Positions 3,665-35,606 of a stretch of 64,000 nucleotides of DNA are shown one piece after another. The stretch's first letter is position 1; each line of letters begins with the position of its first letter. The notes under the pieces are model-generated. The model made no database searches, was not told the DNA's origin, and was given only the letters and a program-made list of their open reading frames with translations. This DNA comes from Pseudomonadota bacterium (lineage in GTDB: Bacteria; Pseudomonadota; Alphaproteobacteria; Caulobacterales; Caulobacteraceae): positions 434,001 through 498,000 of the forward strand of contig JAFECT010000003.1 of NCBI GenBank assembly GCA_018241995.1, read 5' to 3'. A program made the translations under genes and the position numbers.

Positions 3665-6004
<2,340 letters not shown>

Positions 6005-6112
6005 GATCGAGTCGGAACATATGGGGTCCGAAGCCCAGCGCCAACGCGCGACAGATCGTCTTGCCCAAGGTAGACATAGGCATGACGTTCAAGCGCCTGC
6101 CGGAGTGAGCGC

Positions 6113-6481
6113 ATGAGGCTTCCCAATCTTTCGTGGCGGCTCTGCCTATGGTGCGCCCTTCTGACGATCGCGATCGTGCTTTCGGCGCGCAGCTATCTGG
6201 CTGACGGTGCCTTTGCCGAACAGGCGCGCGCGCTTTCGGTGGAAGCGCGGCAAGCGGCGGGAGCGGCGCCCTCAGGCTCTTGGACCAGGCGAACAGGCGC
6301 CCAGATCGCTACGCGCGCAGACGCTTCGGAACGTTACTGGCGCGAGGCCCGCGATAAGGAGCTGCTCATGGGCGGCGCGTGGACTGCCGCCTTCGTGGGC
6401 CTGATCTACCTCGAACTCCGCAAGGGCAGGCGTGCGCCCAAAGGGGTCCCGAGAGCTTCTCAAGGCCCAGCGACGGCCTGA
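6113..6481 (+). CDS. Small two-helix membrane protein, function unknown
   Basis: A 122-residue protein with an N-terminal hydrophobic segment (CLWCALLTIAIVLSA, about 12-26) and a second near GGAWTAAFVGLIYLEL (about 86-101), separated by a polar alanine/arginine-rich loop. It ends in a basic tail. It looks like a small inner-membrane protein with both ends on the same side. I recognise no family. It lies between the divergent uvrD gene and the DUF6491 gene, whose own ribosome-binding site suggests separate translation. The coding call rests on an open frame with clear membrane segments. Confidence 0.6.
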   Translation: MRLPNLSWRLCLWCALLTIAIVLSARSYLADGAFAEQARALSVEARQAAGAAPSGSWTRRTGAQIATRADASERYWREARDKELLMGGAWTAAFVGLIYLELRKGRRAPKGVPRASQGPATA

Positions 6482-6566
6482 TGCCGTTGCTGGGAACCGG
6501 CTTGCGGATTGGCCGGTGACGTGTCGTCCTGTGCGCTGGGGAAGCGATGCGCTTCGGAGGATTGTG

Positions 6567-6980
6567 ATGAAAGCCATCTATCTGGCGCTGGGGGCGGGCG
6601 CCGCCCTGGCAACGCTTGCCGCAACCGCGGCCCTCGGCATGGATCCGCCCGCGCAGGACAAGCCCGCTGCGCCCGTTTGCTTCCGCGGCGACATGGTCCG
6701 CAACTTCGCGGCGCGCGACGAGGAGCACCTTTATCTGCGCGTCGGTGTGAAGAGCGACGTCTATGTGTTCGACATGGTCGGCGCCTGCTCGGGCCTGCAG
6801 GAGGCGGATTCCGTGTCGGTCGGGACGGGCGCCTGCCTCGGCGCCCCGGCGGATGTGATGGTGGTGTTTCGCAACGGCAAACGGCTCGCCCGCGGCAATG
6901 CGATCTGCCATGCGCAAGTGGTGGCCAAGCTGAGCAAGGAAGAGGCGGCCAAGACCCTGCCGCCGGGCGCCCATCCCTGA
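6567..6980 (+). CDS. DUF6491 family exported protein
   Basis: A 137-residue protein preceded by GGAGG at 6556-6560. It has a signal peptide (MKAIYLALGAGAALATLAAT, cleavage near residues 22-25). The mature part shows the DUF6491 pattern: an N-terminal CFRGDMVRNF, LYLRVGVKSDVYVFDM, a central Cys in GACSGL, and a C-terminal Cys in GNAICHAQVV, suggesting one or two disulfides. It is small, periplasmic and of unknown role. The last codons overlap the start of the downstream methyltransferase in CTGA at 6977-6980, so the two are translationally coupled. Confidence 0.78.
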   Translation: MKAIYLALGAGAALATLAATAALGMDPPAQDKPAAPVCFRGDMVRNFAARDEEHLYLRVGVKSDVYVFDMVGACSGLQEADSVSVGTGACLGAPADVMVVFRNGKRLARGNAICHAQVVAKLSKEEAAKTLPPGAHP

Positions 6981-7639
6981 ACCACGACCGCCTCGATATC
7001 GAGCGCTTTATCCTTGAGAACCTGCCTCTGACCGAGGTTCCGGACGTGCCCGAGGTGCGCCTGCATCTGGCCGGACCGACGAGCGGTCTTGGCAGGCTCG
7101 CCGATGCCGATCCGGGTGGCTTCCGCACGCCCTATTGGGCCTATCCGTGGGGCGGAGGCCTGGCCTTGGCGCGCCATGTCCTGGACCACCCAGAGACAGT
7201 CGCCGGGCGCTCGGTGATGGACCTGGGCGCAGGCTCGGGCCTGGTCGGCATCGCCGCCGCCAAGGCGCGCGCGCGGCAGGTGCTGGCGGTGGATGTGGAC
7301 GCCTACGCCGCTGTCGCCGCGCCGCTCAACGCCGAAGCCAACGGCGTCGAAATCCGCTTCCTGCTGGCCGACCTGCTCGCCAGTGAGCCGCCGGAGGGCG
7401 TCGAGATCGTGCTCGCGGCCGACCTGTTCTACGAAGAGGCCTTGGCGCGCCGAACCACAGCCTTCCTCGAACGCTGCCTGCAAGCCGGCGTCGACGTTCT
7501 GATTGGGGACCCTTGGCGCACCCACCTGCCGCGCGAACGCCTGCAGGTGCTGGCCGACTATTCTACCGCCGATGTCGGCCGCTCTGGTCAGGCGCAGGCG
7601 AGCGCAGTGTTCGCCCTGAAAGCCTCGCCACAATCCTGA
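6977..7639 (+). CDS. Class I SAM-dependent methyltransferase (ETFB lysine methyltransferase-like)
   Basis: About 220 residues of a Rossmann methyltransferase. Motif I is VMDLGAGSGLVGIAAAKA near residue 80, followed by VLAVDVDAYA and ADLFYEEALA. The N-terminal FILENLPL and PYWAYPWGGGLALARHVLD resemble the nicotinamide N-methyltransferase/ETFB lysine-methyltransferase group found across alphaproteobacteria. No ATG, GTG or TTG lies in frame near the conserved N-terminus. The best start is CTG at 6977, overlapping the preceding stop as CTGA. That rare start is an inference; the family call is firm. It is co-expressed with the DUF6491 gene. Confidence 0.85.
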   Translation: MNHDRLDIERFILENLPLTEVPDVPEVRLHLAGPTSGLGRLADADPGGFRTPYWAYPWGGGLALARHVLDHPETVAGRSVMDLGAGSGLVGIAAAKARARQVLAVDVDAYAAVAAPLNAEANGVEIRFLLADLLASEPPEGVEIVLAADLFYEEALARRTTAFLERCLQAGVDVLIGDPWRTHLPRERLQVLADYSTADVGRSGQAQASAVFALKASPQS

Positions 7640-7748
7640 CGCAATTCTGAACGCCGCGTGCCGGGGTCGTTCAAACGCAAAGGTGGAGTGTGCCTTCCGA
7701 CGGCGCGGCGATCCTCGCCCGCCGCCTCATCCAAGGAGGGAGACCCCC

Positions 7749-8168
7749 ATGCGTGCAGTGTCCAAGAGCGTTCTGGCCCTGGTTCTCGGCGGCATGGCCG
7801 CCGGCGCCGTCACCACCTCGGCCCTCGCCGGCACGGCCACCGCCGTGCTCGATCCGGCTTCGCCGCCGCACTACGTCGGCAAGTGCCCGGGAACCATCAA
7901 GTTCAACGGCTGGATCAGCTCCAGCGTCCCGGGCGTGGTGAAGTACCGCTGGTTCCGGTCCGACGGAGCACTCGGCCCGGTCCAGACCCTGGTGTTCCGG
8001 CAGAAGGGCCGCCTGCCGATCTCGACCACCTGGACGCTCGGCGGCATCCCCGCCCTGCCGTCCTACGCGGGCTGGGAGGCGGTGCATGTGCTCTCGCCGG
8101 CCGGCCCGGACTCCAACAAGGCGCCCTTTACCCTGAAGTGCGTCCAGTCGCCCCTGACCCACGGGTGA
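7749..8168 (+). CDS. Exported protein of unknown function
   Basis: A 139-residue protein with a strong ribosome-binding site (AAGGAGG about 10 bases upstream) and a signal peptide (MRAVSKSVLALVLGGMAAGA, cleavage after SALA). The mature domain has a beta-rich look: KCPGTIKFNGWISSS, VKYRWFRSDGA, TTWTLGG, WEAVHVLSP and a C-terminal KCVQS. Two cysteines, in KCPG and KCVQ, could join its ends. It resembles a single immunoglobulin-like beta-sandwich secreted domain. I do not recognise a named family. Confidence 0.7.
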   Translation: MRAVSKSVLALVLGGMAAGAVTTSALAGTATAVLDPASPPHYVGKCPGTIKFNGWISSSVPGVVKYRWFRSDGALGPVQTLVFRQKGRLPISTTWTLGGIPALPSYAGWEAVHVLSPAGPDSNKAPFTLKCVQSPLTHG

Positions 8169-8267
8169 TCCGGGTCTGCTCCTCCCTTGCCGGGCAGGGG
8201 AGGAGCGGCCTGCCGGAACCGCCACTCACGCCCGTCTGTTGGAATAGGCAAAGCAAAGGAGCGGCCC

Positions 8268-8513
8268 ATGGCCCCCCACAGCTCCAGCGCCGATTTCCAC
8301 GACCGCGATCACGGAAGCGCCACGCCCTGGCTGGCCTTCGCGCTCGGCGTGATCGTCACCGCCGTGGTGGCGATGGCGGTGTTCCTGCTGGCGAGCGGCG
8401 GGCATCGCGAGAGCCGGCGCATCGACATCGACCTGCAGGCGCCCACGCCGTCTGCGCCCGTCACCCCGCCGTCCCCGCCCAAGATGCCGACGCCCTCGAC
8501 GCCGACGCAGTAG
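8268..8513 (+). CDS. Small single-pass membrane protein with proline-rich tail
   Basis: An 81-residue protein preceded by AAAGGAG. A polar N-terminus with His/Asp (SADFHDRDHGSATPW) is followed by one transmembrane helix (LAFALGVIVTAVVAMAVFLL, about 23-42). A short basic stretch and a Pro/Thr/Ser-rich C-terminus (PSAPVTPPSPPKMPTPSTPT) follow. It is probably anchored in the inner membrane. No family is recognised. The stop codon abuts the convergent ribbon-helix-helix gene at 8514. Confidence 0.65.
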   Translation: MAPHSSSADFHDRDHGSATPWLAFALGVIVTAVVAMAVFLLASGGHRESRRIDIDLQAPTPSAPVTPPSPPKMPTPSTPTQ

Positions 8514-28379: not shown

Positions 28380-28952
28380 TCACCCGAACAATGAATCGAC
28401 TTCGGTTTGCGACAGGGCGCGCTCGGGGCTGGCGGTCAGGGCCAGCGCTTCGGCGCGGCGCTCCTCCACACCTGGCGGCAGGATATGGCTCTTGAAGCGC
28501 CTGTCCGGCCCGCAATAGGCGTCGCTGGTGATGAAGGGACGCGAAACCCTTGCGAGCCAAAGGATGCGATCCATCAGCACGCCCGGCGAGATTGGCTTTC
28601 GGACCACCATGTTGGCCCCCGCGTCGCGCGCCGCGGAAATTCTCTGGAACGAGGTGGAGCCGCTCATGAGGACGATGGGAGCGGTGAAATTGAGCTGGTC
28701 GCGCCGGGAGCGCACGTAGCGGGTCAGCGACAGCCCGTCCTCGTTGGGCATCTCACAATCGGCCAGGATCAGGTCGAACGATTCGAACTCCAGCAGGCCG
28801 CGTGACTCCTCCGCCGAGGCGCAACAGCGGGGCTGAGGCACGCGAAAGCCCAGCAGCACTTGGAGTACGAGATCGAGCGAGTGGGGATTGTCGTCGACCA
28901 GCAGGATGCGTGTCTTGCGCAGATTGAGCCGGCCGGAAGGCTGCAGGATCAT
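28380..28952 (-). CDS. Response regulator receiver protein with C-terminal FliM/CheZ-like motif
   Basis: A 190-residue protein. A CheY-like receiver spans about 14-135: acidic pair Asp20-Asp21, phosphoacceptor Asp65 in LILADCEMP, Ser in VLMSGST and Lys in VVRKPIS. The unusual C-terminal extension of about 50 residues contains CGPDRRFK and ends with LSQTEVDSLFG. That end resembles the CheY-docking peptide at the start of FliM (LSQAEIDALL-type) and the CheZ C-terminus. The start at 28952 is chosen over an Arg-rich upstream extension. It likely relays or sequesters phosphoryl signal in this chemotaxis pathway. Confidence 0.88.
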   Translation of the reverse strand: MILQPSGRLNLRKTRILLVDDNPHSLDLVLQVLLGFRVPQPRCCASAEESRGLLEFESFDLILADCEMPNEDGLSLTRYVRSRRDQLNFTAPIVLMSGSTSFQRISAARDAGANMVVRKPISPGVLMDRILWLARVSRPFITSDAYCGPDRRFKSHILPPGVEERRAEALALTASPERALSQTEVDSLFG

Positions 28953-28968
28953 GCCCGACCACCCCCCG

Positions 28969-29313
28969 TTACCGCGCGCCGCCCTGGAGCAGCGCGTCAA
29001 TCGCAGCCTGGTCCAGGCCCTCGCCAGGCAGGGCTGGGCCATTCAGGAGAGGATCGCGCGCCAGGGCCGCGTCGGGCGTGCTCAGCATGCGACGCAGTTC
29101 GGCGAGCCGCTGGCCCACAATGTCGTGGAATGCGCACGCTTGCAGGATTCTGCCGAGGGAACCTTCGAGTTCAGCCAGCGAGGGTTCGACGCCCTGCCGG
29201 GCGCCGGCGAGGGAACGGAGCGACGCTTCCGCCTCGGTGAGAATGACGTTCGCCGCGCCGTCGATCTCAGTGCGAATGGCCTCGAGGGCGCGGTGCGCTT
29301 CAGGATCGCCCAT
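28969..29313 (-). CDS. Very short CheZ-like CheY phosphatase
   Basis: A 114-residue helical protein whose ATG at 29313 lies one base after the cheY stop, with GGAGAG about 8 bases upstream. ACAFHDIVGQRLAELRRML (from about 60) fits the CheZ active-site helix FQDxTGQ, with Asp64 and the catalytic Gln68 in the right spacing. A disordered Pro/Gly linker leads to LDQAAIDALLQG at 100-111, matching the CheZ C-terminal CheY-docking helix and the FliM N-terminal peptide. Known CheZ proteins are about 200 residues, so this one keeps only the catalytic helices and the tether. Function inferred from motif and position. Confidence 0.78.
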   Translation of the reverse strand: MGDPEAHRALEAIRTEIDGAANVILTEAEASLRSLAGARQGVEPSLAELEGSLGRILQACAFHDIVGQRLAELRRMLSTPDAALARDPLLNGPALPGEGLDQAAIDALLQGGAR

Positions 29314-29314
29314 G

Positions 29315-29701
29315 TCAGAGCTCTCCAAGAACCGCCGTTAGCTTCTGCTTGAGCACGGCCAGGGTGAAGGGCTTGATGATGTAGTTGTTCACGCCTGCGT
29401 TGCGCGCGGCGACAATGTTTTCCGCCTTGGCTTCGGCAGTAACCATGACGAAGGGGGTCGCCTTCGTGCGCTGATCCGCGCGGACTGCCTTAAGCAATTC
29501 GTACCCCGTCATCGGGGTCATGTTCCAGTCCGACAGGATCAGCCCATAGTCCTTGTGGCGTATCTGCTCTAAGGCCGAAGGGCCATCCACCGCGGTATCT
29601 ATATTGTTGAAGCCGAGTTGCTCCAGGAGACCGCGGACGATCCGGATCATGGTTGTATAGTCGTCGACGACGAGCACGTTCATTGACTTGTTGACCGGCA
29701 T
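29315..29701 (-). CDS. cheY: CheY-type chemotaxis response regulator
   Basis: A 128-residue single-domain receiver. The acidic pair is Asp13-Asp14, the phosphoacceptor Asp58 in LILSDWNMTPMTGYELL. The signalling residues are in MVTAEA (Thr) and IIKPFT (Lys), and the sequence is very close to canonical CheY. It is first in a leftward unit with the CheZ-like phosphatase and an accessory receiver protein, facing cheA across an AT-rich control region. It probably carries the output to the flagellar motor or another effector. Confidence 0.94.
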   Translation of the reverse strand: MPVNKSMNVLVVDDYTTMIRIVRGLLEQLGFNNIDTAVDGPSALEQIRHKDYGLILSDWNMTPMTGYELLKAVRADQRTKATPFVMVTAEAKAENIVAARNAGVNNYIIKPFTLAVLKQKLTAVLGEL

Positions 29702-30050: not shown

Positions 30051-33000
30051 TTGAGCGATCCGGTCGACGATCTGGTAAGCGACTTCATTGCGGAGACCCG
30101 CGAAGGTCTCGAGGCGCTCGACAGCGAACTCGTGCGCTTCGAGGCCTGTCCCGACGACCCCGCATCCCTGGGCGAGGTGTTCCGTCTCATCCACACCATC
30201 AAGGGCACGTGCGGGTTTCTGGGTCTTCAGCGCCTGCAGACGGTCGCCCACTCCGCCGAGAACGTCCTGGGCGGCTTCCGAGACGGAGAGGTGGCCGTTA
30301 CGCCGACCGCCGTTTCGGCGATCCTGGACACGGTCGACCTGATCAGGTCCCTGATCGACAGCCTTGCGTCCACGGGCGTCGAGCCTGAGGGGGATGACAG
30401 CGCGATCATCGATCGTCTTGAGATGATCTTCGCGGGCGGCGGCGTGCAGGACGCGACCGGCGTCGCTCCCGCGCCCGAGGAACCCGCGCCACAAGCCAAG
30501 GCCGAAGAAGCTGTGGCGGCGCGTAGCCCGTCGCCAGCGCCCAGCCGCAGTCTGATCGACCGTCTTGGAGGGGATTCCACCCTCGATGCCGCGGTGGAGA
30601 TGGCTCTGCCGAAGATGGTTGGGGATCCACGCCTCGGCGCAGTCTTCGCCGGCGTCGATCACGACCGCATGCAAGCCGGGCTGCGCGACGCGCTGTGCCA
30701 GCTCGCGCGCAGAGAAACGCCGGGGACGGCGTTCGAAGCCGCGATCGCCGCCCTCGTCGATGCGACGCCCGATGCGGGCGTCGTCGAAGCGGTGTTCCGG
30801 GCCATCGCCGACGCGGCCGCCGCACTGGATGCTGAGGCCTCCGACCTTGAGAAGCTGCGGGGGTTGGCGGCCGTCAGCGCGCCGCCGGAGGCCCAGCGGC
30901 AGGAACCGGCCGTCGCTCCCGCGTTTCTCCCCCGCGACGTCTGCCCGTCAGGAGATCGAAGCGGTGATGTGGAGCCGGAGGTCGTGCAGAAGGCGCCGAC
31001 ACGACAGCCGCCTGCGCGATCCGCGGCGTCCGAAGCGCCGGTCAGGTCCGAGGGCGAGTCAGCGGCGGCCCAGACCATCCGCGTCAGCGTCGATGCGCTT
31101 GAACATCTGATGACCGTGGTCAGCGAGCTGGTGCTGATCCGCAACCAGCTCATCCAGACCCTGCGGCTGGAGCCGGAAAGCCCGTTCGCAGCGCCCCTGA
31201 ACCGCCTGAACCAGGTGACCAGCGAACTGCAGGAAGGGGTGATGACCACCCGCATGCAGCCGATCAGCGGGGCCTGGGCGAAGCTGCCTCGCCTGGTCCG
31301 CGACCTGGCGCAGGACCTCGGCAAGACCATCGAACTGCAGATGTTCGGCCAGGAGACCGAACTCGACCGCCAGGTGCTTGAATTGATCAAGGATCCGCTC
31401 ACGCACATGATCCGCAATGCCGCGGATCACGGGCTTGAGACACCCGCCGAACGCCGCGCCGCCGGCAAACCCGAGACGGGGCGCATCACCCTGCAGGCGC
31501 GCCACGAGGGCGGGGCGATCGTCATCGAGGTCGCGGACGACGGGCGGGGCCTTCCCGCCGACAGGATTCGCGACAAGGCGGTCTCCAGCGGTCTGCTTTC
31601 CAGCGCGCAGGCTGAGCAGATGTCCGACGCCGAAGCCCGGCAGCTGATCTTCATGCCCGGATTTTCCACGGCCTCGCAGGTCACGTCCGTGTCCGGCCGC
31701 GGCGTGGGCATGGATGTGGTGCGCACCAATATCGAGAAGATCGGCGGGGTGATCGAGCTCTCCTCGGTTCCGGGCGGCGGCACGCGCTTCACGATCCGTA
31801 TCCCCCTGACCCTGACCATCGTCTCCGCGCTGATCGTCGAATGCTGCGGCGAGCGTTTCGCCATGCCTCAGTCGGCGATCGTGGAACTGGTCAGCGCCAG
31901 CGAGAGCTCCGGAAGAACCATCGAATACATCGACGGCGCTGCGGTTCTGAGGCTCCGCGACCGCCTGCTGCCGCTGATTTCCCTGCAAGCCCTGCTGGGG
32001 CTCGAGCCCAGCGAGAGCCCGCTCGGCGAGACCTGCATCGTCGTGGCCAGGGTCGGCGCTTTCAACTTTGGCGTCACCGTCGATCGCGTGTTCGACACCG
32101 AAGAGATCGTGGTCAAGCCGGTGGCCACCGTGCTGCGCCATCTGAAGCTCTATTCGGGCGCGACGATCATGGGCGACGGCTCAGTCATTCTGATCCTGGA
32201 CCTGAAGGGCGTCTCCGCCGAGGCCGGGGCGGGGCAGAACTCCACCGGCATCCAGGACGACGACGCCGACACGACATCCGCAGATCAGGACCTCTCGGCG
32301 ATCCTGGTGTTCCGCGCCGACGACAATACCTTGAAGGCGGCTCCGCTGGCGGAAGTCTCGCGCATCGAAGAGGTCGCCGCCGGCCAGATCGAGCGCGTCG
32401 ACGGGCGCACGGTCGTCCAGTATCGCGGCAAGCTGATGCCCATTGTCAGCGCCGACGCGGAGCCCGCGGCCGACTGGCAGGGCGGCGAGCGGCGCCCGTT
32501 GCTGGTCTTCGCACGTGATGATCGAGCCGTCGGACTGCTCGCGGGGGAGATCGTCGACATCGTCGAAAGCTCGACCCGGACGCACCTGCCGTCGTCGCAA
32601 CTGGGGTCGCAGGGGAGCCTGATCATCGGCGGCAACGCCATGGAACTGATCGACGTCGGCTATTACTGGCGAAAGGCGCTGGACGAGCCCGAGCAGGCTC
32701 CCGTCGCCGCATCGTCGTCTGCAGCCGCGCTCGGGCAGGCGTTGTTCTCCGCCGCCTCGGCGCCCACGGCGTCGGTCGCCGCCCGGCGGCTGCTCCTGAT
32801 CGACCAGAGTCCTTTCGCCCAGCTGCTGCTGCGCCCGTTGCTCTCCCAGGCCGGATACGACGTGACCGTGGCCACCGATCCCGAGGCGGCGCTGGCGCTC
32901 TATGACGCGGGCGAGGTCTTCAGCCTGATCATGGCCGACACCAGCGACAGCCAGCAGGCGCGCGACTTCGCGCGCGCCTTCGCCAGGGCGACCCATTGGC

Positions 33001-33107
33001 ACAAGACGCCTTTGCTGAGCCTCGCGCTTCAACCCGGCGGGGCGGCTGCGCCGTCGGTGCTCGACGCCGTCTCCGAGGCGCTGGAAGACGTGAGGATGTC
33101 CGCATGA
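30051..33107 (+). CDS. cheA: Chemotaxis kinase CheA with globin-like insert and C-terminal receiver
   Basis: A 1018-residue CheA (usual length 650-750). The Hpt domain is at 1-125 with His48 in RLIHTIKGTCG. A globin-like helical region is at about 165-275 (LIDRLGGDST..., VGDPRLGAVFAGVD). The dimerisation domain starts near 342 (TIRVSVDALEHLMTVV). The ATPase follows, with MIRNAADHGLE, VADDGRGLPA and GRGVGMDVVRTN. A CheW-like domain is at about 590-730 and a second one at about 750-880. A degenerate receiver is at about 910-1018 (RRLLLIDQSPF, LIMADTSDS, no clear Lys). The start is TTG after GGGAGACG. It overlaps cheW by ATGA. Confidence 0.95.
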   Translation: MSDPVDDLVSDFIAETREGLEALDSELVRFEACPDDPASLGEVFRLIHTIKGTCGFLGLQRLQTVAHSAENVLGGFRDGEVAVTPTAVSAILDTVDLIRSLIDSLASTGVEPEGDDSAIIDRLEMIFAGGGVQDATGVAPAPEEPAPQAKAEEAVAARSPSPAPSRSLIDRLGGDSTLDAAVEMALPKMVGDPRLGAVFAGVDHDRMQAGLRDALCQLARRETPGTAFEAAIAALVDATPDAGVVEAVFRAIADAAAALDAEASDLEKLRGLAAVSAPPEAQRQEPAVAPAFLPRDVCPSGDRSGDVEPEVVQKAPTRQPPARSAASEAPVRSEGESAAAQTIRVSVDALEHLMTVVSELVLIRNQLIQTLRLEPESPFAAPLNRLNQVTSELQEGVMTTRMQPISGAWAKLPRLVRDLAQDLGKTIELQMFGQETELDRQVLELIKDPLTHMIRNAADHGLETPAERRAAGKPETGRITLQARHEGGAIVIEVADDGRGLPADRIRDKAVSSGLLSSAQAEQMSDAEARQLIFMPGFSTASQVTSVSGRGVGMDVVRTNIEKIGGVIELSSVPGGGTRFTIRIPLTLTIVSALIVECCGERFAMPQSAIVELVSASESSGRTIEYIDGAAVLRLRDRLLPLISLQALLGLEPSESPLGETCIVVARVGAFNFGVTVDRVFDTEEIVVKPVATVLRHLKLYSGATIMGDGSVILILDLKGVSAEAGAGQNSTGIQDDDADTTSADQDLSAILVFRADDNTLKAAPLAEVSRIEEVAAGQIERVDGRTVVQYRGKLMPIVSADAEPAADWQGGERRPLLVFARDDRAVGLLAGEIVDIVESSTRTHLPSSQLGSQGSLIIGGNAMELIDVGYYWRKALDEPEQAPVAASSSAAALGQALFSAASAPTASVAARRLLLIDQSPFAQLLLRPLLSQAGYDVTVATDPEAALALYDAGEVFSLIMADTSDSQQARDFARAFARATHWHKTPLLSLALQPGGAAAPSVLDAVSEALEDVRMSA

Positions 33108-33583
33108 AACGCGTGAACGGGGCGGCCCTTATCGCGGAAGCCGCCGAGGGACTGGTCTCAATCAAGGTCGGCAAACAGACCTTCGGCGTCCCGGTGCTGA
33201 AGGTCCAGGACGTCATCACCCAGACCACGATCAATCGGGTGCCGCTGGCGCCGCCCGAGGTGGCGGGGTCGCTGAACCTGCGCGGACGGATCGTCACGGC
33301 GATCGACATGCGCCGGCGTCTGAAGATGGCGGCTCGCGACGAAGACGACCGCTACATGTGCGTCATCGTCGAGCACGGCGGGGAGCTCTATGCCCTCCTG
33401 GTCGATGACGTGGGTGACGTGCTGTGGCTGTCATCGGCCGACTACGAAGGCGGGCCCGCGACCCTGTCGCCGCATTGGCGCTCGGTGTGCAGCGGACTCT
33501 ACCGCCTCGACCATGAGCTGCTGCTGGTCCTCGACATCGCACAGGTCCTGACCCTGACGGGCGGCGCGAACATGGCCGCCTGA
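33104..33583 (+). CDS. cheW: Chemotaxis coupling protein CheW
   Basis: A 159-residue CheW made of the two-lobed SH3-like fold. [37 protein letters not shown] and [12 protein letters not shown] are the conserved segments. It links the receptor tip to CheA and CheR/CheB pathways in the cytoplasm. It starts in the ATGA overlap with the cheA stop, so the two are translationally coupled. The soluble receptor gene follows after 80 bp. Confidence 0.95.
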
Positions 33584-33662: not shown

Positions 33663-35606
33663 ATGGCAAACGCCGCCGCAAAACTGGCCGAAGACATCGT
33701 TGCGTTCGACGAGATCGCCGCGATCCGCACCGCGGTCGACAATACCTCGGTCGCGCTGATGATGGTCGACCGCGATCTGGTCATCACCTTCGTCAACCAG
33801 GCGACACGTGACCTGATGGGCCGCAATATCGAGGCCTTCAGGACCGCTTTCCCGCGCATCGATTTCGACAATCTGATCGGCGTCAACATCGACGCCTTCC
33901 ACAAGCACCCGGAGCACCAGAGGCGTATCCTCGCCTCGCCGGGGCGCGAGCCGCACCAGGCCGAGATCGCGGTCGGCGACCTGCGCTTCCAACTGCGCGT
34001 CAGCGGGGTCATGGATCCGGCCGGCGATCACGTCGGAAGCGTGCTGGAGTGGGCCGACGTCACGCTCATGCGCACCCAGGAAGGCATGCTGGCCGCGCTG
34101 GACAAGGCGCAGGCGGTGATCGAGTTCAGCCTGGACGGCACGATCGTCAACGCCAACGCCAACTTCCTGAACACCGTCGGCTACACCATCGAGGAGATCC
34201 GCGGGCGGCACCACTCAATGTTCGTCGATCCGGCCTATCGTGACGGCGCGGAATACCAGGCGTTCTGGGCCAAGCTTGGGCGGGGTGAGTATGACGCCGG
34301 CCAGTACAGGCGCGTCGGCAAGGGCGGGCGCGAGATCTGGATCCAGGCCAGCTACAACCCCATCCTCGACAAGAGCGGCAAGGCCTTCAAGGTCGTGAAG
34401 TACGCGACCGACATCACCGCCGAGAAGCTGCAGGCGGCCGATTTCGCAGGGCAGATCGACGCCATCGGCAAGGCCCAGGCGGTCATCTCCTTCAGCCTCG
34501 ACGGCAAGGTGCTCGAAGCCAACGAGAACTTCCTCAGCACCATGGGCTACACCATGGACGAAATTCGTGGCCAGCCACACGCCATGTTCGTCGACCCGGA
34601 GTACAGGCAGTCGGTCGAATATCGGGCCTTCTGGGAAAAGCTGGCGCGAGGGGAATACGACGCCGGCCAGTATCGCCGCCTCGCCAAGGGCGGGCGTGAG
34701 GTCTGGCTGCAGGCCAGCTACAACCCGATCAACGACATGAACGGTCGCCCGGTGAAGGTAGTGAAGTACGCGACCGACATCACCGCCCAGCGTGACTTCC
34801 GCAAGGTGGCCGAACGGGTCAAGGAAATCTCCAACGTCGTCGCGTCGGCGGCCTCGGAAATGCGCGCGACGGCGGAATCGATGTCGCGCACGGCGCAGGA
34901 AGCGACCCAGCAGGCGACCGCCGTCGCCAACGCCGCCCAGCTGGCCTCGACCAATGTGCAAACCGTGTCGGCGGCCAGCGAGGAGCTGTCGGCATCCATC
35001 GCAGAGATCGCGCGGCAGGTCAGCGAATCCACCAACATCACCCAGCGCGCGGTCGCCGAGACCGACAAGACCAGCTCCGCGATCCAGAGCCTCGCGGATG
35101 CGGCCCAGAAGATCGGCAATGTGGTCACCCTGATCAACAACATCGCCGGCCAGACCAAGCTCCTGGCGCTCAACGCCACCATCGAAGCGGCGCGGGCGGG
35201 CGATGCGGGCAAGGGTTTTGCGGTTGTGGCTTCTGAGGTGAAGAGCCTGTCGGATCAGACGGCCAAGGCCACCCACGAGATTTCGTCGGAGGTCGCCGCC
35301 ATGCAGGCGGCGACGGCGACCTCGGTCGCGGCCATCCAGGGCATCGCCGAGACCATCGGCAAGGTCGCGGAAATCGCCGCCGCGATCGCCAGCGCGGTGG
35401 AAGAACAGTCTGCGGCGACGGGTGAAATCTCCGCCAACGTCACCGAGGCGGCGGCGAGCACGCGCGAGGTATCGACGAACATCCAGAGCGTGACTGAAGG
35501 CGTGGCTCAGACCAGTCTTGCCTCGGCCGAGCTGCTGACCGCCTCGGGCGAACTCGCGGTGCAGTCCGAGGCCCTGAGCGCCGAGATGGACAATCTGCTG
35601 AAGTAG
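33663..35606 (+). CDS. Soluble methyl-accepting chemotaxis protein with three PAS domains
   Basis: A 647-residue receptor without transmembrane helices, hence cytoplasmic. PAS1 is at about 18-135. PAS2 (about 138-260) and PAS3 (about 262-382) are close duplicates: both contain MFVDPx[12 protein letters not shown] and [10 protein letters not shown]. The signalling domain covers about 385-640, with the hairpin tip [20 protein letters not shown] and [18 protein letters not shown]. No C-terminal CheR/CheB-docking pentapeptide is visible. The PAS domains probably bind a redox or small ligand. It is the natural receptor for the CheA/CheW upstream. Confidence 0.93.

Follow-up and report, generated by a model that had tools for sequence, protein, structure and literature searches.

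In Escherichia coli, the chemotaxis kinase CheA carries a CheY-docking domain, P2, between its phosphotransfer domain (P1) and P3. What occupies this position, and what it does there, is the question raised by a CheA gene lying in a 64,000-nucleotide stretch of a Caulobacteraceae genome (hereafter the window; GenBank assembly GCA_018241995.1, contig JAFECT010000003.1, positions 434,001 to 498,000). A first-pass annotation had read the segment as a truncated-globin-like domain devoid of haem, and the peptides that it quoted are indeed found in the CheA frame at 30543-30875. Overall, the evidence tilts slightly towards an explanation in which a haem-binding group 1 truncated haemoglobin (trHb1) was turned into a haem-less, P2-like docking module within CheA.

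Organisation of the CheA gene and its neighbours

The CheA gene (30051..33107, + strand) starts with TTG and comprises 1018 codons, for a protein of 1018 amino acids. The Hpt, dimerisation, HATPase and CheW domains expected of a CheA histidine kinase are all recognised by Pfam, and their order is F5-like, i.e., Hpt, globin-like domain, dimerisation domain, HATPase, CheW, a second CheW-like part and a degenerate receiver. On the + strand, P1 (Hpt) covers residues 7-99 (30069..30347; E 1.5e-16), P3 (H-kinase_dim) residues 341-399 (31071..31247; E 9e-12), P4 (HATPase_c) residues 448-587 (31392..31811; E 4.4e-20) and P5 (CheW) residues 593-721 (31827..32213; E 4.8e-30), Pfam recording two CheW stretches in all. 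The receiver-like C-terminal part (32793-32939) scores 14.2 bits, below the Pfam cut-off, and seems degenerate; the receiver of the relative L165, described below, is full. Residues 100-340 match no Pfam model, P2 and CheY-binding models included. It is within this interval, in the P2 position, that sequence and structural modelling place the truncated-globin-like domain without haem ligands (residues 167-276; 30549..30878, +).

The gene is flanked by other chemotaxis genes. A divergent neighbour on the - strand (29315..29701; Pfam Response_reg E 6.5e-26) encodes a CheY-like response regulator, a candidate partner of the kinase. Downstream on the + strand lie a CheW without a globin tail (33104..33583; Pfam CheW E 1.5e-30) and a PAS-type methyl-accepting chemotaxis protein, also without globin (33663..35606). 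Two further genes on the - strand encode a response regulator (28380-29042) with the C-terminal tail ALSQTEVDSLFG and a CheZ-like protein (28969-29328) with the C-terminal tail LDQAAIDALLQGG. Both tails look similar to CheY-binding peptides of the FliM/CheZ type.

Identity of the inserted domain

The likeness to trHb1 that had been claimed from inspection of the letters holds under systematic comparison. When the window segment alone is compared by phmmer with all PDB chains, the top 17 rows are all trHb1, the best being 2ksc (E 5.9e-4). With a profile built from 62 free-standing trHb1, CheA excluded, the segment reaches 25.4 bits, whereas the highest score among 5000 shuffles is 8.8 and the reversed sequence scores -0.5; judged on sequence comparison, the resemblance is beyond chance. 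An alignment of 13 relatives gathered from Caulobacterales (A1), in which seven columns are invariant over the 13 sequences, finds the Chlamydomonas trHb1 1uvx as its best match (E 1.5e-6), with 12 more truncated-globin sequences below 0.01. A second set (A3) consists of 13 CheA globin domains from outside Caulobacterales, all 13 of which match the Pfam family Bac_globin; its profile picks up the window domain at 2.3e-10, and hhalign pairs A1 with A3, which comprises haem-competent and intermediate CheA globins, at 99.1% (E 1e-18). Membership of the group 1 truncated haemoglobins (Bac_globin) by profile homology is thus met.

Detection nevertheless depends on intermediate sequences. A profile search had been proposed as a check, and it does return significant globin matches by phmmer and by profiles, but the single window segment does not reach the cut-off of Pfam PF01152 (Bac_globin). 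It matches no Pfam model at all, which is also the sole evidence on membership of the RsbR N-terminal family, and when searched alone against named genome contigs it finds nothing, A1 being needed. NCBIfam gives the single segment one weak match, to XopI, which was set aside because its 17.7 bits lie below the cut-off of 800. The domain had been placed at about residues 165-275; the segment is real, with its boundaries corrected to 167 and about 276. A later helix was also said to line up with trHb1; it does match the trHb F-to-H region through the profile, but this is unclear in the single sequence.

Structure prediction points the same way. With A1 as input, AlphaFold2 returns a confident isolated domain of seven helices (pLDDT 96.4, pTM 0.89). 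Truncated globins fill the first 37 rows of a Foldseek search of the PDB (best E 6.5e-3, TM 0.76) and the first 34 of VIA-align, led by 1dly (Z 11.8, rmsd 2.6 over 101 residues). The predicted model therefore meets the description of a truncated-type globin fold; the P2-like fold or disorder that would have refuted the inference of a globin was not seen in it. In a model of CheA residues 1-412, the globin block has a pLDDT of 95-97 and the flanking linkers 39-49. Linker 1 (residues about 131-163; 30441..30539, +) is predicted to be disordered, with a pLDDT of 43-49 over residues 131-160, and so is linker 2 (residues about 282-343; 30894..31079, +), with 39-46 across most of its length. Between P1 and P3, the domain is predicted to sit as a folded unit held by a disordered tether on either side. 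Taking sequence and predicted structure together, we are highly confident that residues 167-276 form a group 1 truncated globin.

Loss of the haem ligands

The first-pass annotation had noted that the B10 Tyr and the proximal His are missing, and alignment confirms both absences. At the B10 site (30606..30608, +), where free trHb1 and haem-competent CheAs have Tyr, the domain has Leu186, and at the proximal F8 site (30744..30746, +) it has Ile232, so that it fails both ligand criteria of trHb1. All 64 free trHb1 and all eight haem-competent CheAs carry His at F8; most of the 29 Caulobacterales copies carry Leu or Ile there. In the E-F turn, Ala-Arg replaces the GG, a conserved Gly now being Arg. 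Because the B10 Tyr, the F8 His and the E-F turn Gly are all replaced, loss of haem is strongly expected, in the absence of any haem measurement. Gln208 and Arg212 in helix E and Arg220 are conserved, being kept in most relatives.

Distribution of the family and haem-competent relatives

In a sample of 385 alphaproteobacterial genomes (one per species, drawn across families), the A1 and A3 searches recover at least 20 whose CheA bears a globin at the P2 position; in Caulobacterales, such CheAs occur in at least 10 of 299 genomes. Among named genome contigs, examples come from Brevundimonas (including B. bullata), Caulobacter, Phenylobacterium and Euryhalocaulis. The conservation in relatives that had been suggested as a check thus extends to other Caulobacterales and other Alphaproteobacteria, with the domain in the same place.

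The existence of haem-competent versions of the same CheA in other Alphaproteobacteria lay beyond the reach of the earlier reading. At least eight CheAs, all outside Caulobacterales, keep both the B10 Tyr and the F8 His: L165 (genome G541), L101 (G644), L166 (G509), L167 (G722), L168 (G478), L169 (G613), L170 (G513) and L182 (G625), the last despite a divergent sequence. In L165, Pfam reads Hpt, Bac_globin (7e-19), dimerisation, HATPase, CheW and receiver. These intact relatives presumably bind haem, an inference from their residues for which no binding data exist. Besides the globin in the P2 position, two CheAs have another inserted within the CheW (P5) domain: L168 (L168:3354-6953; residues 202-317 and 709-824) and L208 of genome G499 (L208:2-2620; residues 164-279 and 659-774). 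Both P5 globins are intact, with B10 Tyr and F8 His. In the L074 CheA, the globin domain is shortened by about ten residues.

The nearest named relatives of L165 among named genome contigs are plasmid-borne CheAs of Azospirillum and Rhodovastum. Their matches are each split in two and span about two thirds of the query, and we read these CheAs as matching L165 everywhere except the globin.

Globins also occur elsewhere in the chemotaxis proteins of these bacteria. A CheW that ends in a Bac_globin domain, and PAS-type receptors that have one at the N-terminus, are encoded at L063:8884-9834, L063:9988-12432, L083:9016-11052 and L212:4464-7328; in L063 and L083 they adjoin a CheA with a haem-less globin. 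A general pairing of the CheA domain with globins carried by the neighbouring receptor and CheW was considered and rejected: it is true only of G207 (L063) and, as regards the receptor, of L083, and the window's own CheW and methyl-accepting chemotaxis protein carry no globin. In one family elsewhere in the phylum (f189), free trHb1 genes are found as adjacent pairs in many draft genomes (e.g., G845:C44:10914-11771).

Descent within CheA

In a tree of the kinase core, built with the globin columns left out, a 100/98 branch has all 46 globin-bearing rows on the same side. The haem-less Caulobacterales copies form a 100/99 group, and the domain is retained throughout the 30-row Caulobacterales clade. 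The only row scored as without globin inside the globin side is L076, whose globin sits in the upstream frame of a split gene; this globin-type CheA is spread over two reading frames (L076:5440-6345 and 5877-8273), by a frameshift or an assembly error. Mapped on this tree, the haem label needs about six changes. Most simply, these are repeated losses of the ligands; the direction is inferred, since counts on the tree cannot separate loss from gain, and loss is preferred because independent regain of both ligands is unlikely.

CheA globins with and without the haem ligands have a helix-E signature in common, D-x-D-x-L-Q-x-x-x-R, whose D-x-D-x-L-Q part is rare in free trHb1. Leu occupies the fifth position in 6 of the 8 haem-competent and 28 of the 39 haem-less CheA globins, where 61 of 64 free trHb1 have Gln; the sixth is Gln in 38 of 47 CheA globins and Ala or Arg in 61 of 64 free trHb1. 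That the haem-competent and haem-less copies share a signature specific to CheA supports common descent inside CheA. A tree of the domain itself leaves many forks unresolved, its rows being short and its long branches meeting. An origin from another globin of the same genome was also considered and rejected: the only other Bac_globin match above the cut-off (C13:311671) lacks the LGG start of trHb1.

We read the sequence record as one old acquisition of a globin followed by repeated loss of the haem ligands. An ancestral alphaproteobacterial CheA would have acquired a haem-binding trHb1 between P1 and P3, and several lineages, including all Caulobacterales copies examined, would then have lost the ligands while retaining the fold. 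It is probable, with good confidence, that the window domain descends from a haem-competent CheA globin.

Role of the haem-less domain

We give even chances to docking as the present role of the domain, an inference made without any test of binding to CheY or another partner. The haem-less domain would substitute for P2 by drawing a response regulator or another chemotaxis protein near P1, and its contact face would probably be helix E with its signature. Docking is favoured because the gas-sensing residues are gone, whereas a new conserved set in helix E (Gln208, Arg212) remains together with Arg220. It is also favoured because CheAs of the globin-free sister group have a motif in the same linker that is nearly exclusive of the globin. 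In these proteins, VSxAELEAAF stands at the same place in 11 of 13, and it is present in only 1 of 46 globin-bearing rows; L174 has the motif and a decayed globin together. In L002-L013, the linker from Hpt to the dimerisation domain holds a conserved LRPGEVSxAELEAAF, with two copies in L009, which may be a short CheY-docking motif. The VSxAELEAAF core may resemble the CheY-binding peptide at the N-terminus of FliM, and has no match in the PDB.

The domain could instead be a haem-independent sensor, whose pocket would detect another small molecule or a physical signal and alter kinase activity, making it an input domain within CheA. This has precedents in other proteins, where globins without haem serve as sensors: the N-terminal domain of the stressosome protein RsbR is a non-haem globin, a Vibrio RsbR binding haem (PMC9237108), and HemAT binds ethanol in its globin domain without using the haem (PMC7542364). 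Haem-competent relatives in the same CheA position are, moreover, natural candidates for gas sensors. The window domain, however, hangs on disordered linkers with no helix to couple it to the kinase, and no conserved pocket residue that would hint at a ligand was found. We consider sensing possible but unlikely.

Alternatively, the domain may have lost its function with haem and been kept as a vestigial spacer, harmless between two linkers. Scores against the free trHb1 profile do fall along a ladder across the CheA globin family, from 173 to 5 bits, and L074 lacks part of the domain. Against this stand a confidently predicted fold, the seven invariant columns of A1, retention across the Caulobacterales clade and the pattern of substitution. 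In simple Nei-Gojobori estimates on short segments from nine close pairs, dN/dS of the globin is 0.10-0.36 in eight pairs and 0.68 in one, compared with 0.25-1.1 for the linkers and 0-0.13 for the kinase. The haem-less domain is mostly under purifying selection, which does not reach the level seen for the kinase but clearly exceeds that of the linkers in most pairs. The constraint is only moderate, because the domain is more variable than the kinase core (54-92% identity in close pairs, against 92-100%), because of the pair at 0.68 and because of the L074 deletion. A mere spacer thus appears improbable, more so than a sensor.

Haem could still be held through other residues, as globins vary in their ligation and even the divergent L182 keeps its B10 Tyr and F8 His; with F8 Ile or Leu in most Caulobacterales copies, an aliphatic residue at B10 and Ala-Arg in the E-F turn, this is very hard to sustain. 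That the segment is no globin, but a chance match of Ala-rich helices or a diverged P2 domain, finds some room in the lack of a Pfam match for the sequence alone and in the modest Foldseek E-values, and is contradicted by the profile, structural and intermediate-sequence evidence to the point of being negligible.

Relation to known systems and significance

The haem-less domain can be compared with several known systems. With trHb1 (PF01152; 1dly, 1idr, 2ksc), the window domain shares the fold (VIA Z of about 11-12), the N-terminal LGG motif and profile homology; it differs in lacking the F8 His and B10 Tyr, along with the Gln of helix E and the E-F turn GG, and in being fused inside CheA. Like the P2/CheY-binding domain, it lies between P1 and P3 on flexible linkers, but it has an all-helical globin fold and matches no P2 model. 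RsbR is likewise a signalling protein with a haem-less globin and haem-binding kin in the same protein family (PMC9237108), but its globin is of the sensor type and stands at the N-terminus of a STAS protein, rather than being a truncated globin within a histidine kinase. Globin-coupled sensors (HemAT, AfGcHK, globin diguanylate cyclases) also tie a globin to chemotaxis or kinase output; theirs is an N-terminal sensor globin on a receptor or kinase, a description not met by the window domain, which is internal (167-276) and without F8 His. Receptors combining Bac_globin and PAS are already known (PMC6194562).

The remainder of the window CheA resembles an F5-type CheA with two CheW parts and a receiver (PMC10782961). 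In that genome-wide survey, the auxiliary domains of CheA are given as P2, CheY-like and CheC/CheX (PMC10782961; preprint PMC10542144), and CheA is said to have no sensor (input) domain; the words globin and heme are absent from its main text. No report of a globin in CheA was found in the open-access literature. We tentatively suggest, with more doubt than conviction, that in one alphaproteobacterial lineage CheA has a truncated haemoglobin of its own, in some members two (at the P2 position and within P5), through which the kinase itself senses O2, NO or CO without a receptor; in Caulobacterales, this sensor would have become a haem-less docking domain.

Altogether, a globin at the P2 position marks a lineage of CheAs, apparently haem-competent in several alphaproteobacterial families and without haem residues in others. 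It makes two questions testable, namely whether gas can be sensed by a chemotaxis kinase itself and how a haem protein turns into a protein-interaction module with its fold kept. The apparent absence of P2 from many CheAs may partly reflect diverged docking domains that escape Pfam.
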